From the NCBI GenBank assembly GCA_017460885.1, contig JAFUAB010000050.1, positions 1 through 64,000 of the forward strand: DNA of 64,000 bases, in the 5' to 3' direction. Under the pieces are notes generated by a model. That model was not told the DNA's origin. It saw only the letters and a program-made list of their open reading frames with translations, and did not search any database. This stretch comes from Lachnospiraceae bacterium (GTDB lineage Bacteria > Bacillota > Clostridia > Lachnospirales > Lachnospiraceae). This document shows, in pieces, positions 6,209-23,386 of this stretch. Numbering within the stretch: position 1 is the first letter of the stretch; each line of letters opens with the position of its first letter. Made by a program: the position numbers and the translations under genes.

Positions 6209-7117
6209 TTGAACGTACTTATAACAGGAGCTTCGGGCTTCATAGGCAACTCCATATTGAGGTATTTCAGGGAAAAGGGAGCGGACGTTACCGGATGGGA
6301 CGTGCACGGATCCGAAGATGGGAGCGTGCAGTCCGTGGACATGTGTGTTCAGGCAAACGTTGAGCAGGCTCTTGGCAGTCCGAAGCCCGACGTGATAGTG
6401 CACTGTGCCGGAAGCGCAAACGTGAGCGATTCAATCGCCAATCCGGACCGCGACATGATGTTAAACGTCAACGTCACGCATAACCTGCTCTTTGCCATGC
6501 TTCATCACGAGCTTAAGAGTACACGGCTAATATATCTGTCAAGTGCCGGAGTTTACGGCAATCCCGTCAAGCTTCCGATCCGTGAGGACGATCCGAGGAC
6601 TCCTGTATCGCCATATGCCCTGCATAAGACCATGTGCGAAGACATGTGCAGGTATTTTAATGATAACCATGGGTTCGACGTGCGCGTTGCCAGGATTTTT
6701 TCGGCATACGGTGCGGGACTCAGGAAGCAGATTTTCTGGGACATGCACCGGAAGTACGTGGTTTCCGGCAGGCTTGAGATGTATGGGACCGGAGATGAGA
6801 GCCGGGACTTCATCAATATTGAAGACCTGAAAAGGGCAATTTATCTGCTGGCAGTTTCTGATTATGAACAGAAAACAGTAAATGTTGCCAACGGAGTTGA
6901 GGTAAGGATATGCGATGCAGTCAGAATCTTTGCCGCCAGATCCGGGATCCCCGAGTCAGCCATTTCATTTAACGGCAACACGCGTGCGGGCGATCCTATC
7001 AACTGGTGCGCGGACGTGAGCGTGCTTAAGTCCCTCGGCTATGAACAGCAGGTTACGCTGGAGGAAGGGATCGGGGCGTACGTGGAATGGCTCGGATGCT
7101 CGGGAAGTGCTCAATAA
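6209..7117 (+). CDS. NAD-dependent epimerase/dehydratase (extended SDR)
   Basis: A Rossmann-fold nucleotide-sugar enzyme of 302 residues. ITGASGFIGN at the N-terminus is the GXXGXXG dinucleotide loop. The active site is visible as LSSAGVYGNP (Ser) and SPYALHK (YX3K). Length and motifs match GalE/RfbB-type sugar epimerases and dehydratases, so it interconverts an NDP-sugar for the neighbouring transferases; the exact sugar is unclear. The start is TTG, two bases after the upstream stop and behind AAAGGA. It is the last gene before the accessory island, and the next gene has its own promoter. Confidence 0.85.
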   Translation: MNVLITGASGFIGNSILRYFREKGADVTGWDVHGSEDGSVQSVDMCVQANVEQALGSPKPDVIVHCAGSANVSDSIANPDRDMMLNVNVTHNLLFAMLHHELKSTRLIYLSSAGVYGNPVKLPIREDDPRTPVSPYALHKTMCEDMCRYFNDNHGFDVRVARIFSAYGAGLRKQIFWDMHRKYVVSGRLEMYGTGDESRDFINIEDLKRAIYLLAVSDYEQKTVNVANGVEVRICDAVRIFAARSGIPESAISFNGNTRAGDPINWCADVSVLKSLGYEQQVTLEEGIGAYVEWLGCSGSAQ

Positions 7118-19586: not shown

Positions 19587-20519
19587 TCATTTACCTGCTT
19601 GGTGATATCTGATCTGGTACCAAACACATAACTTCAAAAGAGTAATAACCTGGGTGAATGATTTTTTTATGACTTTTACTGATGGCCATGTTAACATGGC
19701 TTTTGATGAATATCGTATAGTGTCATTATATCGTTTGAGAGTTAAAGCCAAATCAGCCAGAAACAGATATTGTTGTGCAATCCATCCTTTTTTATTCGGA
19801 GCAAGATCTGCATGAGTCCTGATCATATATGAGATCCCCTCAAACTTGCTATCCCAATTCATAGAGATGTTTGCTCCTGGAGTCCAGTAATATTTTGTCA
19901 GGGCTTTAGGTATTCGTACTGCAGTTCCCGTGGCCAGCATCCTTATCCATAAGTCCCAATCCTGACAGGCTTTCAGACCCTCGGTAAATCCTCCGGCGTT
20001 GATAAAGCAATCCCTTCGCATCAGAGGGAATGAGGCTCCGCCAATGACATTGCCCTGAGTGAAAAGATCCTCGCGGGTTATTGTGACACTCTCCGTATAT
20101 GATGAGTCTTCCTCAAATGGATTTCCGTCATTATCAAACTGTACGAGGTTTGAATCACAGGTAACCATAGCACAGTTTTTGCTTTCGATCACGGCAACCT
20201 GTTCGGCTATTTTGTCAGGCAGCCATTCGTCATCATCATCTAAAAAGGATATATAATCTCCAATGGTATTTTTCACTCCGTAGTTTCTGGCGAAGCAAGC
20301 GCCTTTGCTGCCTTTATACGATAAGTATAGTATTTTTTTACCGTACGTATCATTGAGTAGCCGTATCGTGTCATCCGATAATTTGTCATTGTCAGGATTA
20401 TCATCGACAATTGCCAGATTAATATCGGGATATGTCTGTGCAGCCACGCTTGCAACCGCACGGCAAAGGGTTTTGGCAGGGCGATTATATGTTGTTATAA
20501 TGACCGATACTTCTCGCAT
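19587..20519 (-). CDS. GT2 family glycosyltransferase, leftward
   Basis: A family 2 GT-A transferase of about 310 residues. VIITTYNRP opens the donor-binding strand, FLDDDDEWLPDKI carries the DXD metal site, and ACQDWDLWIRM is the acceptor-side ED/W motif. I place the start at 20519 (MREVSV); an ATG at 20546 would add nine residues and falls in the centre of the left recombination site. Neither has a good ribosome binding site. It runs against every neighbour and starts beside the recombinase segment, so its transcription may depend on the orientation of that segment. It converges with the nitroreductase gene, and their stop codons abut at 19586/19587. Confidence 0.85.
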   Translation of the reverse strand: MREVSVIITTYNRPAKTLCRAVASVAAQTYPDINLAIVDDNPDNDKLSDDTIRLLNDTYGKKILYLSYKGSKGACFARNYGVKNTIGDYISFLDDDDEWLPDKIAEQVAVIESKNCAMVTCDSNLVQFDNDGNPFEEDSSYTESVTITREDLFTQGNVIGGASFPLMRRDCFINAGGFTEGLKACQDWDLWIRMLATGTAVRIPKALTKYYWTPGANISMNWDSKFEGISYMIRTHADLAPNKKGWIAQQYLFLADLALTLKRYNDTIRYSSKAMLTWPSVKVIKKSFTQVITLLKLCVWYQIRYHQAGK

Positions 20520-20522
20520 GTA

Positions 20523-20551
20523 TTGATAATGGTTAACATTTTGCATAAAAT
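20523..20551 (+). promoter_or_regulatory. Promoter-like sequence spanning the left recombination site
   Basis: TTGATA (20523-20528) and TAAAAT (20546-20551) are 17 bases apart and lie upstream of the recombinase gene. The -35 element is outside the site and the -10 element inside its right arm, so recombinase bound here would block the promoter. Autoregulation is inference. Confidence 0.45.
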
Positions 20552-20560
20552 GTTAACCAT
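20529..20560 (+). repeat. Left core-type recombination site (IR-A)
   Basis: This is a perfect inverted repeat with 14-base arms, ATGGTTAACATTTT and its complement, around the asymmetric centre GCAT (20543-20546). The form matches a tyrosine-recombinase core site. The 20-base core TTAACATTTTGCATAAAATG (20533-20552) recurs exactly, in inverted orientation, at 21209-21228. Confidence 0.8.
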
Positions 20561-20576
20561 CGCACGGAGGATTAAA

Positions 20577-21146
20577 ATGAGCACTACGGAACCCATTAGA
20601 AAAGAACATGACATTTATCTGCTTAAGGAACTTTTGATCAATCAGAACTATAGGGATTACTGCTTGTTTGTGGTTGGAATAAATATCCCATTACGTATAA
20701 GCGACTTATTGAGGCTTAAGTGGAACGACGTATATGATTATCCACACAACCTTCCAAAAACGCATTTGCGGATTTTCGAGAAAAAAACGCAAAAACAAAA
20801 CCAGATGCGAATAAATCATCAGGCAGCCATGGCATTAATGACATATAGGGAAATCATTAATCCCATGCCCAACCAGTTTGTTTTTTCTCCAAAGGATAAC
20901 CATGACGTCCCATTATCACGTGTATCTGCTTATAAGATTATAAAAAAGGCTGCCACGAAAATTGGACTGGAAAACGTGAGTTGTCACTCACTCAGAAAAA
21001 CTTTTGGATATCAGGCAATGAGCAAAGGTGCAAATATAGCTGTGATCATGGAAATCTATAATCATTCATCCTACGAGATCACCCGCAGGTACTTAGGAAT
21101 CGATCAGGACGAAAAGGACCGGGTATTTGAATTGATGGCATTATAA
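20577..21146 (+). CDS. Small tyrosine recombinase (FimB-like size, no arm-binding domain)
   Basis: A 189-residue catalytic-domain recombinase, about the length of FimB/FimE-type invertases and shorter than the roughly 300-400 residues of phage integrases. The expected catalytic residues are visible: Arg 40 in IPLRISDLL, a Lys in the EKKTQK beta-hairpin, His 137 and Arg 140 in CHSLRKTFG, His 163 in YNHSS and nucleophile Tyr 172 in TRRYLGI. The start at 20577 follows a strong ACGGAGG site. The gene is flanked by inverted core-like sites at 20529 and 21204, and its promoter-like sequence overlaps the left site. This suggests a phase-variation invertase acting on its own segment. Confidence 0.88.
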   Translation: MSTTEPIRKEHDIYLLKELLINQNYRDYCLFVVGINIPLRISDLLRLKWNDVYDYPHNLPKTHLRIFEKKTQKQNQMRINHQAAMALMTYREIINPMPNQFVFSPKDNHDVPLSRVSAYKIIKKAATKIGLENVSCHSLRKTFGYQAMSKGANIAVIMEIYNHSSYEITRRYLGIDQDEKDRVFELMAL

Positions 21147-21164
21147 TCATATTTCGTGTATAAT
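21142..21164 (+). promoter_or_regulatory. Tandem TATAAT boxes facing the rightward operon
   Basis: Two consensus -10 hexamers stand at 21142-21147 (overlapping the recombinase stop) and 21159-21164. The second is preceded by GTG. The -35 match is poor at standard spacing (TGGCAT at 21136). They lie inside the putative invertible segment, about 80-100 bases before the GT4 start. This makes them candidates for the orientation-dependent promoter. Confidence 0.4.
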
Positions 21165-21203
21165 AGTCGTGTTTTTGTTGATGCGTTTTATGTGTCCTGA
21201 ACA

Positions 21204-21230
21204 GTTACCATTTTATGCAAAATGTTAATT
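21204..21230 (-). repeat. Right core-type recombination site (IR-B)
   Basis: CATTTTATGCAAAATGTTAA (21209-21228) is the exact reverse complement of the 20-base core of IR-A. The left arm has one extra mismatch (TTACC against TTAAC), so this copy is slightly less palindromic. It ends just before the GGAG ribosome binding site of the GT4 gene at 21243. Confidence 0.78.
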
Positions 21231-21242
21231 GGAGAGTGATCT

Positions 21243-22436
21243 GTGAAAATTGTTTTCGTTACGTTTGAGTTTGTAACCGAAAAAGTAAAAGGCGGTGGCC
21301 TGGCATCATATCTTGCTAATATTTCCTCCATTCTGGCAGATGCGGGTCATTCCGTCACCATTATAACATTGTCACATGTTAATGATTCTTTTGAATGGAA
21401 AAATCGCATTCGTGTTGAAAGAGTATGTGTTCCTCCGTTGCTGATCGGTAAGGGACGAGTATGGCTTAGTCTTATAAATCAAAGCAGATATTTAAACAGG
21501 CGCTTACGGAAACTGATCAGATCGGGACAGCATTTTGACATTGTTCAATATCCCAATACAAATGCCGTAGGTCTGTTTAGAACCGGAATTCCCTCGGTCG
21601 TTCGGATCTCTAATGACTCGCTATTGTGGAGAAACAGTAATATAGAGGGCTTTGACGTTGATAAAGCATATAAATGTGAAACAGTACAGGATAAACTGGA
21701 GGATATAGCACTAAAGAAGGCAGATCGGGTTTTTGGTCCGTCTTCCCGAATTGCCGGTATAATTTCGACACGTACCGGACGTAAGATAGATATCGTTGAA
21801 TCCCCATATATCCAGTTTGACGATGATCCTGATTTCGTATCCGATTATCTTAACTTGATCAAAGATAAAAAATATTTTCTTACTTTCGGACAGTTGAGCA
21901 GGATGAAAGGAATCCAGGTTATTGGTGAATCAATTTATCGTCTTTTAGATACCCATCAGGAATATTACTATATTTTTTCCGGGCCGGACCGAAGTATAGT
22001 TTCCGACGGACAGTATATTACATGTATGGAATATATATCTGAAAATGCCAAGGAGTATGCTGACAGGATAATCTATCTTGGGAGTTTGCCGAGACAGGAT
22101 CTGTATCCGGTGATAAGGGCTGCTAAAATGGTCATCCTCACATCAAGGATTGACAATATGCCAAATACCTGTCTTGAAGCAATGTATTTGAAAAAGCCCG
22201 TCATAGGGACGAATGGAGCCGGGTTTGAACAATTGATTACAGACGGCGTAAACGGCTTTCTGATAGGTCGTGACAGTGCGGATGATCTGGTTAAGACGGC
22301 AGACCGGATTATTAATATGTCCGATGAAGAGCTGAATATTATCGGGGAAAAAGCCTTCGAAAGGATCCGGCAAATGAAGCCGAAGGATACGTTGGATAAA
22401 ACTCTTGGGATATACAGTGAAGTTCTATCGAAGTGA
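21243..22436 (+). CDS. GT4 family glycosyltransferase
   Basis: A 397-residue GT-B enzyme. The N-terminal KGGGLASYLANIS is the glycine-rich loop; TFGQLSRMKGIQVI and SRIDNMPNTCLEAMYLKKPVIGT form the donor-binding half. The usual first EX7E glutamate is replaced by Asp in DNMPNTCLE, a tolerated variant in some GT4 enzymes. The GTG start lies eight bases after GGAG, immediately downstream of the right recombination site. This gene and the co-transcribed ATP-grasp gene are therefore the first that an orientation-dependent promoter would drive to the right. Confidence 0.85.
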   Translation: MKIVFVTFEFVTEKVKGGGLASYLANISSILADAGHSVTIITLSHVNDSFEWKNRIRVERVCVPPLLIGKGRVWLSLINQSRYLNRRLRKLIRSGQHFDIVQYPNTNAVGLFRTGIPSVVRISNDSLLWRNSNIEGFDVDKAYKCETVQDKLEDIALKKADRVFGPSSRIAGIISTRTGRKIDIVESPYIQFDDDPDFVSDYLNLIKDKKYFLTFGQLSRMKGIQVIGESIYRLLDTHQEYYYIFSGPDRSIVSDGQYITCMEYISENAKEYADRIIYLGSLPRQDLYPVIRAAKMVILTSRIDNMPNTCLEAMYLKKPVIGTNGAGFEQLITDGVNGFLIGRDSADDLVKTADRIINMSDEELNIIGEKAFERIRQMKPKDTLDKTLGIYSEVLSK

Positions 22437-23386
22437 TTGGTGAAGGAATGAAAAACACTATAATAAAAATAAAACATATGGGCAAGATGATTCTTGACGA
22501 AGACTATCGATTCAGAACACTGTATGATCAGGGAAAGTATGATCATATGAGTGATGGCAGATTCATCAGGAGACAATGGAAATATGAATTGGGGAAGGAA
22601 CAGTCCTTGAATTTGGAGGATCCCCAAAGCTTTAATGAAAAGATTCAATGGTTGAAATTGAATGACCGTGATCCCGTGTATCATATATTGGCGGATAAGG
22701 TAGAAGTTAAAAAATGGGTGGCGGAGAGGCTCGGAGAAGAATACGTCATTCCTACTATCGGAATATGGGATAATGCGGATGAGGTTGATTTTGAAGCATT
22801 ACCTGAAAGATTTGTAATTAAATGTTCTCATAATTCCGGATTGGGCAATTGCGTATGTACGGATAAAACTAAACTGGATTATTCACTTGTTCGAAACGAG
22901 TTAAACCGGTATCTGGAACAGGATTATTATCTTCTGTATAGAGAATGGGTTTATAAAGATATCGTACCACGCGTGATCGCGGAGAAATATATGGGTCCGG
23001 GTGGAACAGAAAGCCTGGTTGATTATAAGGTGCACTGTTTCTCGGGAAAACCCCGATTTATTCAAGTCATTGGCGGCAGAGATTATAAGACACATAATGC
23101 CTGGCAAGTTGTTTATGACACAGATTGGAATGAGCAGACATGGACTTTTGGAACATTCCATAAAACCGATGAGGTCATATCTCAACCATCCTGCCTTGCT
23201 GAACTTCTGGAGGCAGCGGAAAGTCTTTCTGATGGATTGAGATATGTTCGTGTGGATTTTTATATAATTAACAACAGGATATTTTTTGGAGAAATGACTT
23301 TCTATCCTCATGCTGGAATGTATCGGCATAATAGGTATTTTACACCTGAAATCAACAGATTCCTGGGAGATCTTATTATTTTGTAG
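22433..23386 (+). CDS. TupA-like ATP-grasp protein
   Basis: A 317-residue protein of the TupA-like ATP-grasp family found in surface-polysaccharide clusters. Typical elements are NEKIQWLKLND, ADKVEVKKWV, FVIKCSHNSGLGNCV (the ATP-binding strand-loop), DYKVHCFSG and a late VDFYIINNRIFFGEMTFYPH bearing metal-binding acids. Members are thought to form an amide or peptide-like bond that attaches an amino acid or similar group to teichuronopeptide or polysaccharide. The start is uncertain: GTG at 22433 overlaps the previous stop, and ATG at 22448 follows GGTGAAGGA too closely. An AsnB-type amidotransferase lies nearby at 24698. Confidence 0.82.
   Translation: MIGEGMKNTIIKIKHMGKMILDEDYRFRTLYDQGKYDHMSDGRFIRRQWKYELGKEQSLNLEDPQSFNEKIQWLKLNDRDPVYHILADKVEVKKWVAERLGEEYVIPTIGIWDNADEVDFEALPERFVIKCSHNSGLGNCVCTDKTKLDYSLVRNELNRYLEQDYYLLYREWVYKDIVPRVIAEKYMGPGGTESLVDYKVHCFSGKPRFIQVIGGRDYKTHNAWQVVYDTDWNEQTWTFGTFHKTDEVISQPSCLAELLEAAESLSDGLRYVRVDFYIINNRIFFGEMTFYPHAGMYRHNRYFTPEINRFLGDLIIL

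Follow-up and report, generated by a model that had tools for sequence, protein, structure and literature searches.

The stretch analysed here (the window) comprises 64,000 nucleotides from a Lachnospiraceae bacterium, and the locus of interest lies between two divergent sets of glycosyltransferase genes (Table 1). A GT2 gene is read leftward on one side and a GT4 gene, followed by a gene for an ATP-grasp protein, is read rightward on the other. This arrangement had been proposed in an earlier, sequence-only reading of the same DNA, and both the gene layout and the Pfam assignments agree with it. The interval between them holds a gene for a small tyrosine recombinase, bracketed by two sites in inverted orientation. 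At the left end of the window, positions 16–89 match a group II intron family of Rfam.

Table 1. Features of the locus (window coordinates; promoters and invertible segment are predictions)
Feature	Position	Strand	Description
Candidate recombinase promoter TTGGCA-N17-TATAAT	20473..20501	+	Outside the segment, antisense in the GT2 5' end; consensus match without control
GT2 glycosyltransferase, proposed left target	19587..20519	-	PF00535, 4e-25; ORF opens at 20546
Alternative candidate recombinase promoter over the left site	20523..20551	+	TTGATA outside and TAAAAT inside the site; consensus match without control
Left recombination site	20529..20560	+	ATGGTTAACATTTT-GCAT-AAAATGTTAACCAT; perfect 14-nt inverted arms
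Predicted invertible segment	20543..21218	.	Site centre to site centre; exact crossover point presumed
Tyrosine recombinase, 189 aa	20577..21146	+	Catalytic domain only; ATG start; PF00589
Candidate outward promoter ATGGCA-N18-TATAAT	21135..21164	+	Over the 3' end of the recombinase gene; in the present orientation directed at the rightward genes; consensus match
Right recombination site	21204..21228	-	24/25 nt as in the left site, inverted
GT4 glycosyltransferase, proposed right target	21243..22436	+	PF00534, 2.5e-24
TupA-like ATP-grasp protein	22433..23386	+	PF14305, 1.5e-59; overlaps the GT4 end

The recombinase matches PF00589 over residues 22–175 (E 1.4e-21; 77.5 bits, cut-off 27.1) and its best PHROGs match is phrog_216 (6.4e-51). 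Alignment of 14 sequences reveals that R40, K70, K73, H137, R140, H163 and Y172 are invariant, and we take these to be the catalytic positions. The domain match and the seven residues bear out the earlier description of a 189-residue tyrosine recombinase with the expected residues. The protein stays below threshold for two NCBIfam models of tyrosine-type DNA invertases of the FimB/FimE kind, NF007370 (25.3 bits, cut-off 221) and NF007371 (E 9e-10, 38.4 bits, cut-off 222), which are presumably the FimE and FimB models, respectively. PF00589 was the sole family found in the Pfam scan at E 0.001, and no serine recombinase domain of the Hin/Gin kind was present.

The two sites share the 20-bp core TTAACATTTTGCATAAAATG, located at 20533–20552 (+) and, inverted, at 21209–21228 (−), both copies being identical, and the match stretches to 25 nucleotides with 24 of them in common. 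The 20 identical inverted bases and the GCAT and ATGC centres of the sequence-only reading were thus found in place. The plan of the left site, AACA-N12-TGTT, is common to the sites of relatives; the right site, centred on ATGC, has imperfect arms. No other exact inverted 20-mer pair with a spacing of 100–3000 bp occurs in the 64-kb window. Two inverted core sites around the element proposed to be switched, as in DNA inversion, and a recombinase of the family within inverted AACA-N12/13-TGTT sites, the arrangement by which we recognise the cassette family (a motif-free control was run too), are both present in the window. The G+C content of the cassette is 37%, against 42% in each 5-kb flank.

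Both TATAAT boxes reported earlier inside the segment are present, at 21142–21147 and 21159–21164, and the better-scoring promoter, ATGGCA-N18-TATAAT, uses the second of them. It faces GT4 at present and a flip would point it to GT2. Its fit to the consensus is moderate, six of 100 mononucleotide shuffles scoring as high; that it works as a promoter is a prediction. The motif TTGCAA-N17-TATAAT is similarly placed in three related loci (L243, L244 and L247, where 0, 5 and 1 of 100 shuffles were as good), as is TTGAAA-N17-TATAAT in L113 (0 of 100), but in the other 7 of the 12 non-flagellin loci tested the sigma-A-like promoter did not rise above the background, being equalled by 14 to 74 of 100 shuffles. 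All of these shuffles permute single bases and are a mild control. The recombinase start codon begins 17 bases downstream of the left site, a distance too short to accommodate a promoter, and the best candidates for its expression are the two given in Table 1. Since one of these is situated entirely, and the other in part, in the left flank, which does not move, one may speculate that recombinase expression in the window depends on orientation. A recombinase promoter across the left site was read, partly by eye, in just two of the 12 loci, the window and L113; as a trait of the family it was reduced to a hint.

GT4 is preceded by GGAGAG at 21231–21236. For GT2 no ribosome-binding site is visible on reading the sequence in either orientation. 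The ATG that had been placed inside the left site exists, but the protein sequence makes the ATG at 20517–20519, outside the core, the more likely start. GT2 is presumably translated; the missing ribosome-binding site is the weakest point of a two-sided reading.

The host genome is 3.6 Mb in 55 contigs, with a listed contamination of 6.64%. The exact site pair occurs elsewhere in it on contig C38 only, which repeats the window contig (C32) in reverse with 99.995% identity over 82,492 bases and has the segment in the same orientation. The repetition looks like assembly redundancy, and a second switch in this genome was rejected, the C38 copy being a duplicate contig. Other site pairs within 3 mismatches of the core were absent from the host genome, so that the proposed search for site-like sequences at other loci gave the duplicate pair and no further one. 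A near-match to the core on C51, with 3 mismatches and without a partner among the matches listed, was set aside after its open reading frames were listed. In the genus (7 genomes, host included) there is no orthologue of the window recombinase, only matches of 24–32%, and the ATP-grasp gene led to no comparable locus, with matches of only 36–41% besides the window's own two copies.

More distant relatives are plentiful. A scan of genome contigs yielded 63 relative loci, and matches were found in 38 of 397 genomes of the family (E 1e-20) and, with a different query, in 52 of 392 of the order (E 1e-25), the host being counted in both; in genus g60 the recombinase is present in 40 of 77 genomes. 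Among 91 full-length loci (window included), 23 have a bracketing pair, 20 have a pair upstream of the recombinase and 48 have no pair, whereas none of 455 shuffled regions gave one (non-overlapping dinucleotides permuted, a mild control, as for the sigma-28 shuffles below). A second set of 121 recombinases from 120 loci, overlapping the 91, gave 69 bracketed, 13 upstream and 39 without a pair. Because the pair rule applied to both sets demands AACA-N11-14-TGTT in at least one arm, it is unable to prove the motif, and the search was repeated free of it: a pair scoring at least 17 was found in 49 of the 91 loci, and 35 of these best-scoring pairs contained AACA-N12/13-TGTT. In the tree a single clade of 50 rows takes in every one of the 20 upstream rows and 1 of the 23 bracketed ones. 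The layout changes twice if pairless rows are excluded and 26 times (shuffled mean 37.6) if they are treated as a third state. The exact placement of the window is unsure because its row is long-branched.

In the upstream form a small inverted-repeat segment, mostly of about 140 bp, precedes the recombinase (for example L016, L026, L033, L058, L257 and L271), and some bins hold multiple copies of it per genome. Of 16 loci on viral contigs, 14 were tested (all except L293 and L294), giving 3 upstream pairs and no bracketed one. One record named Bacteriophage sp. (L278, MT837916.1) has a bracketed cassette together with csrA and flagellin genes and is for this reason probably bacterial. Relatives below 60% identity were found in 1204 plasmid and 146 phage records (E 1e-10), and their annotation, among the matches listed, is mostly integrase or recombinase. 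In L123 a TATAAT-bearing stretch (6661–6731, recombinase-oriented) is mirrored on either side of the distal site.

The bracketed form occurs in two settings, the first of them next to csrA-flagellin. Seventy-two of the 120 loci (among L112–L151, L198–L242 and L252–L269) are adjacent to csrA or flagellin, and 62 of these are bracketed; the Pfam check covered csrA at two of the loci and flagellin at a single one. In genus g60, 45 of 54 fetched copies are at csrA or flagellin. An outward sigma-28-like motif, TWAA-N16-18-CGWWA, is located at the 3' end of the recombinase in 59 of the 72 loci. Each of the three alternative placements had a match in 4 to 5 of 72, shuffling produced one in 93 of 1440 cases, and among the non-flagellin loci it was present in 2 of 48. 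The motif closely resembles the consensus TAAA...MCGATAa quoted for Butyrivibrio in PMC3720852. With OFF denoting a promoter that points away from csrA-flagellin, the automatic call gave 59 OFF, 3 ON, 1 with both and 9 without a match. Reading confirmed ON for L240 and L263, the latter with its promoter toward csrA-flagellin and a bracketing pair scoring 33; the third ON call, L115, is ambiguous because of a further match deep within its long segment. Thus, 59 of the 61 loci of clear state are OFF, with 11 of the 72 set aside. The excess of OFF may reflect selection, biased recombination or sampling.

Other cassettes are located, like that of the window, beside sugar genes. Twelve sugar-linked loci (window included) were chosen by their sugar-like neighbours, and each has at least one sugar-related family (GT2, GT4, NeuB, epimerase, Glyphos_transf, PS_pyruv_trans, SIS, or a sugar nucleotidyl or IspD-like transferase). 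Since the loci were chosen in this way, the Pfam results confirm the choice and are no measure of enrichment. A bracketing inverted pair is present in 10 of the 12, the exceptions being L121 and L113, the latter cut by a contig end, and 9 of the 12 resemble the window in that the nearest gene on either side points away from the cassette. The second set has 7 bracketed loci without a flagellin link, all within these twelve. Among the non-flagellin loci the Pfam scan of neighbours covered these twelve, with L116, L120, L128, L248, L135 and others lying outside it.

An indication of inversion comes from two congeners at csrA-flagellin. Between L240 and L241 the csrA side aligns on the same strand (L240 3044–3326, 78%) while the adjoining segment of about 780 bp (L240 3344–4124, 75%) aligns in reverse; L242, L237 and L239 match the orientation of L241. 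Compared base by base, the inner half-sites have moved together with the segment and the outer ones have stayed in the flanks, a pattern which, on this alignment, is as predicted by site-specific inversion and which supplies comparative breakpoints for the segment predicted in the window. One outer half-site being degenerate, the automatic rule counts both loci as pairless; their sites were identified by eye. The far flank of L240 is unalignable to the four congeners, which leaves some room for re-insertion. The comparison of orientations in related genomes that had been suggested as a check has found a reversed segment between these congeners. The flipped state of the window copy was not seen between C32 and C38, which as near-identical duplicates rather than independent strains are uninformative on flipping, and no opposite orientation emerged between L246 and L247, whose left flanks both carry epimerase and CBS genes. 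In the family, 11 of 33 loci have the cassette within 700 bp of a contig end, where 2.2 would be expected; the figures for genus g60 are 3 of 45 and 1.45, a difference that is not significant. Such an enrichment could arise from mixed orientations or may stem from repeats.

Taken together, it is very probable that 20543–21218 is a self-contained DNA-inversion switch with phase variation of a glycan as its outcome. The sequence-only reading had arrived at the same switch, and the bracketed layout in relatives, the inverted state of L240 and the cassettes beside other sugar genes speak for it. In such a switch the encoded tyrosine recombinase would act on both inverted sites and flip the segment between them. 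The outward promoter near the recombinase 3' end would drive GT4 and the ATP-grasp gene now and be turned toward GT2 after a flip, so that a surface glycan would become phase-variable. We infer that the window copy flips; its product is presumably a surface glycan.

It is possible, though unlikely, that the locus is a relic in which sites and recombinase persist but switching has ceased, the right site having diverged, for instance, or the signal for GT2 translation having been lost. The mismatch in the 25-nt pair, the imperfect arms of the right site, the missing ribosome-binding site of GT2 and the long branch of the recombinase would fit a relic. However, the recombinase frame is intact with its conserved residues kept, the central 20 bp are the same in both sites, and the arms of the left site match without a mismatch. 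It is also unlikely that the locus is a small mobile element, a transposon or integrating cassette with a tyrosine recombinase, which would have the inverted repeats as its termini, travel between glycan and flagellin loci and invert only incidentally. Such an element would account for finding no close relative among the 6 further genomes of the genus, for the several copies in some related genomes, for the lower G+C of the cassette, for the relatives on plasmid and phage records and for the dissimilar far flank of L240. Yet the host genome has a single pair apart from the duplicate contig, the promoter position is conserved at flagellin-linked cassettes, and the frequency of the recombinase in genus g60 and its place at csrA or flagellin there look like a switch that has been kept. 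That a chance inverted repeat surrounds an ordinary integrase or multimer-resolution recombinase is highly improbable: the sites are AT-rich, most of the listed relatives from phages and plasmids carry an integrase or recombinase annotation and 48 of the 91 relatives are pairless, but shuffling produced no pair, the pair is unique in the window, the motif-free search recovers the same motif in bracketed and upstream forms, and L240 is found inverted.

Flagellins and surface sugars are the first contact of bacteria with immune systems and phages. If the inversion switch is real, the flagellin copies caught OFF would be a genetic means of hiding flagellin, and the on/off heterogeneity of flagellin and surface sugars would find an explanation in a compact cassette that carries its recombinase, sites and promoter together. 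Ordinary long-read data would suffice to read the state of a cassette. A short recombinase within inverted AACA-N12/13-TGTT sites would serve as a search rule for phase-variable genes in many species, and the family would allow a direct test of why flagellin is mostly found OFF.

No description of such self-inverting cassettes was found in the open-licence literature, outside which lie most subscription papers and all bioRxiv preprints, and with this partial coverage the novelty is provisional. On balance we lean towards the view that the host family and order hold undescribed, Hin-like self-inverting tyrosine-recombinase cassettes which reached the H-segment layout independently and switch flagellin (csrA-fliC) or surface glycans. 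In the fim system of E. coli a small, catalytic-domain-only tyrosine recombinase (FimB/FimE) flips a promoter segment, as proposed in the window, but the recombinase genes are located outside the segment, and fim is resembled more by the relatives with an upstream switch (20 of 91) than by the window. The layout of the window cassette is that of Hin in Salmonella, with an unrelated recombinase. According to PMC9368917 and PMC5903667, the H-segment likewise has its recombinase inside, an outward promoter and a site at each end, and its flagellin target is that of many relatives here. Recombinases usually adjoin their switch and only occasionally, as with Hin, lie inside it (PMC5903667). The contrast drawn earlier with fim is fair, but a recombinase within its own segment is not new in itself. 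Hin belongs to the serine recombinases and has an enhancer bound by Fis, whereas the window cassette encodes a tyrosine recombinase and lies between sugar genes; the cassette would work like Hin but, because of its tyrosine recombinase, is not a member of that system, and it would show convergence upon the Hin layout by an unrelated enzyme. RecV of C. difficile (cwpV, flgB) is also a tyrosine recombinase acting on short inverted-repeat segments at flagellar and surface targets, as described in PMC5386303. RecV, however, serves several switches, its repeats have no recognisable identity and its flagellar switch, at 154 bp, is too short for a recombinase gene (same text). Mpi of Bacteroides similarly governs inversion switches at capsular polysaccharide loci, but according to PMC5386303 and PMC5903667 it is one serine-type master recombinase for at least 13 switches that are not self-contained, unlike the cassette in the window.
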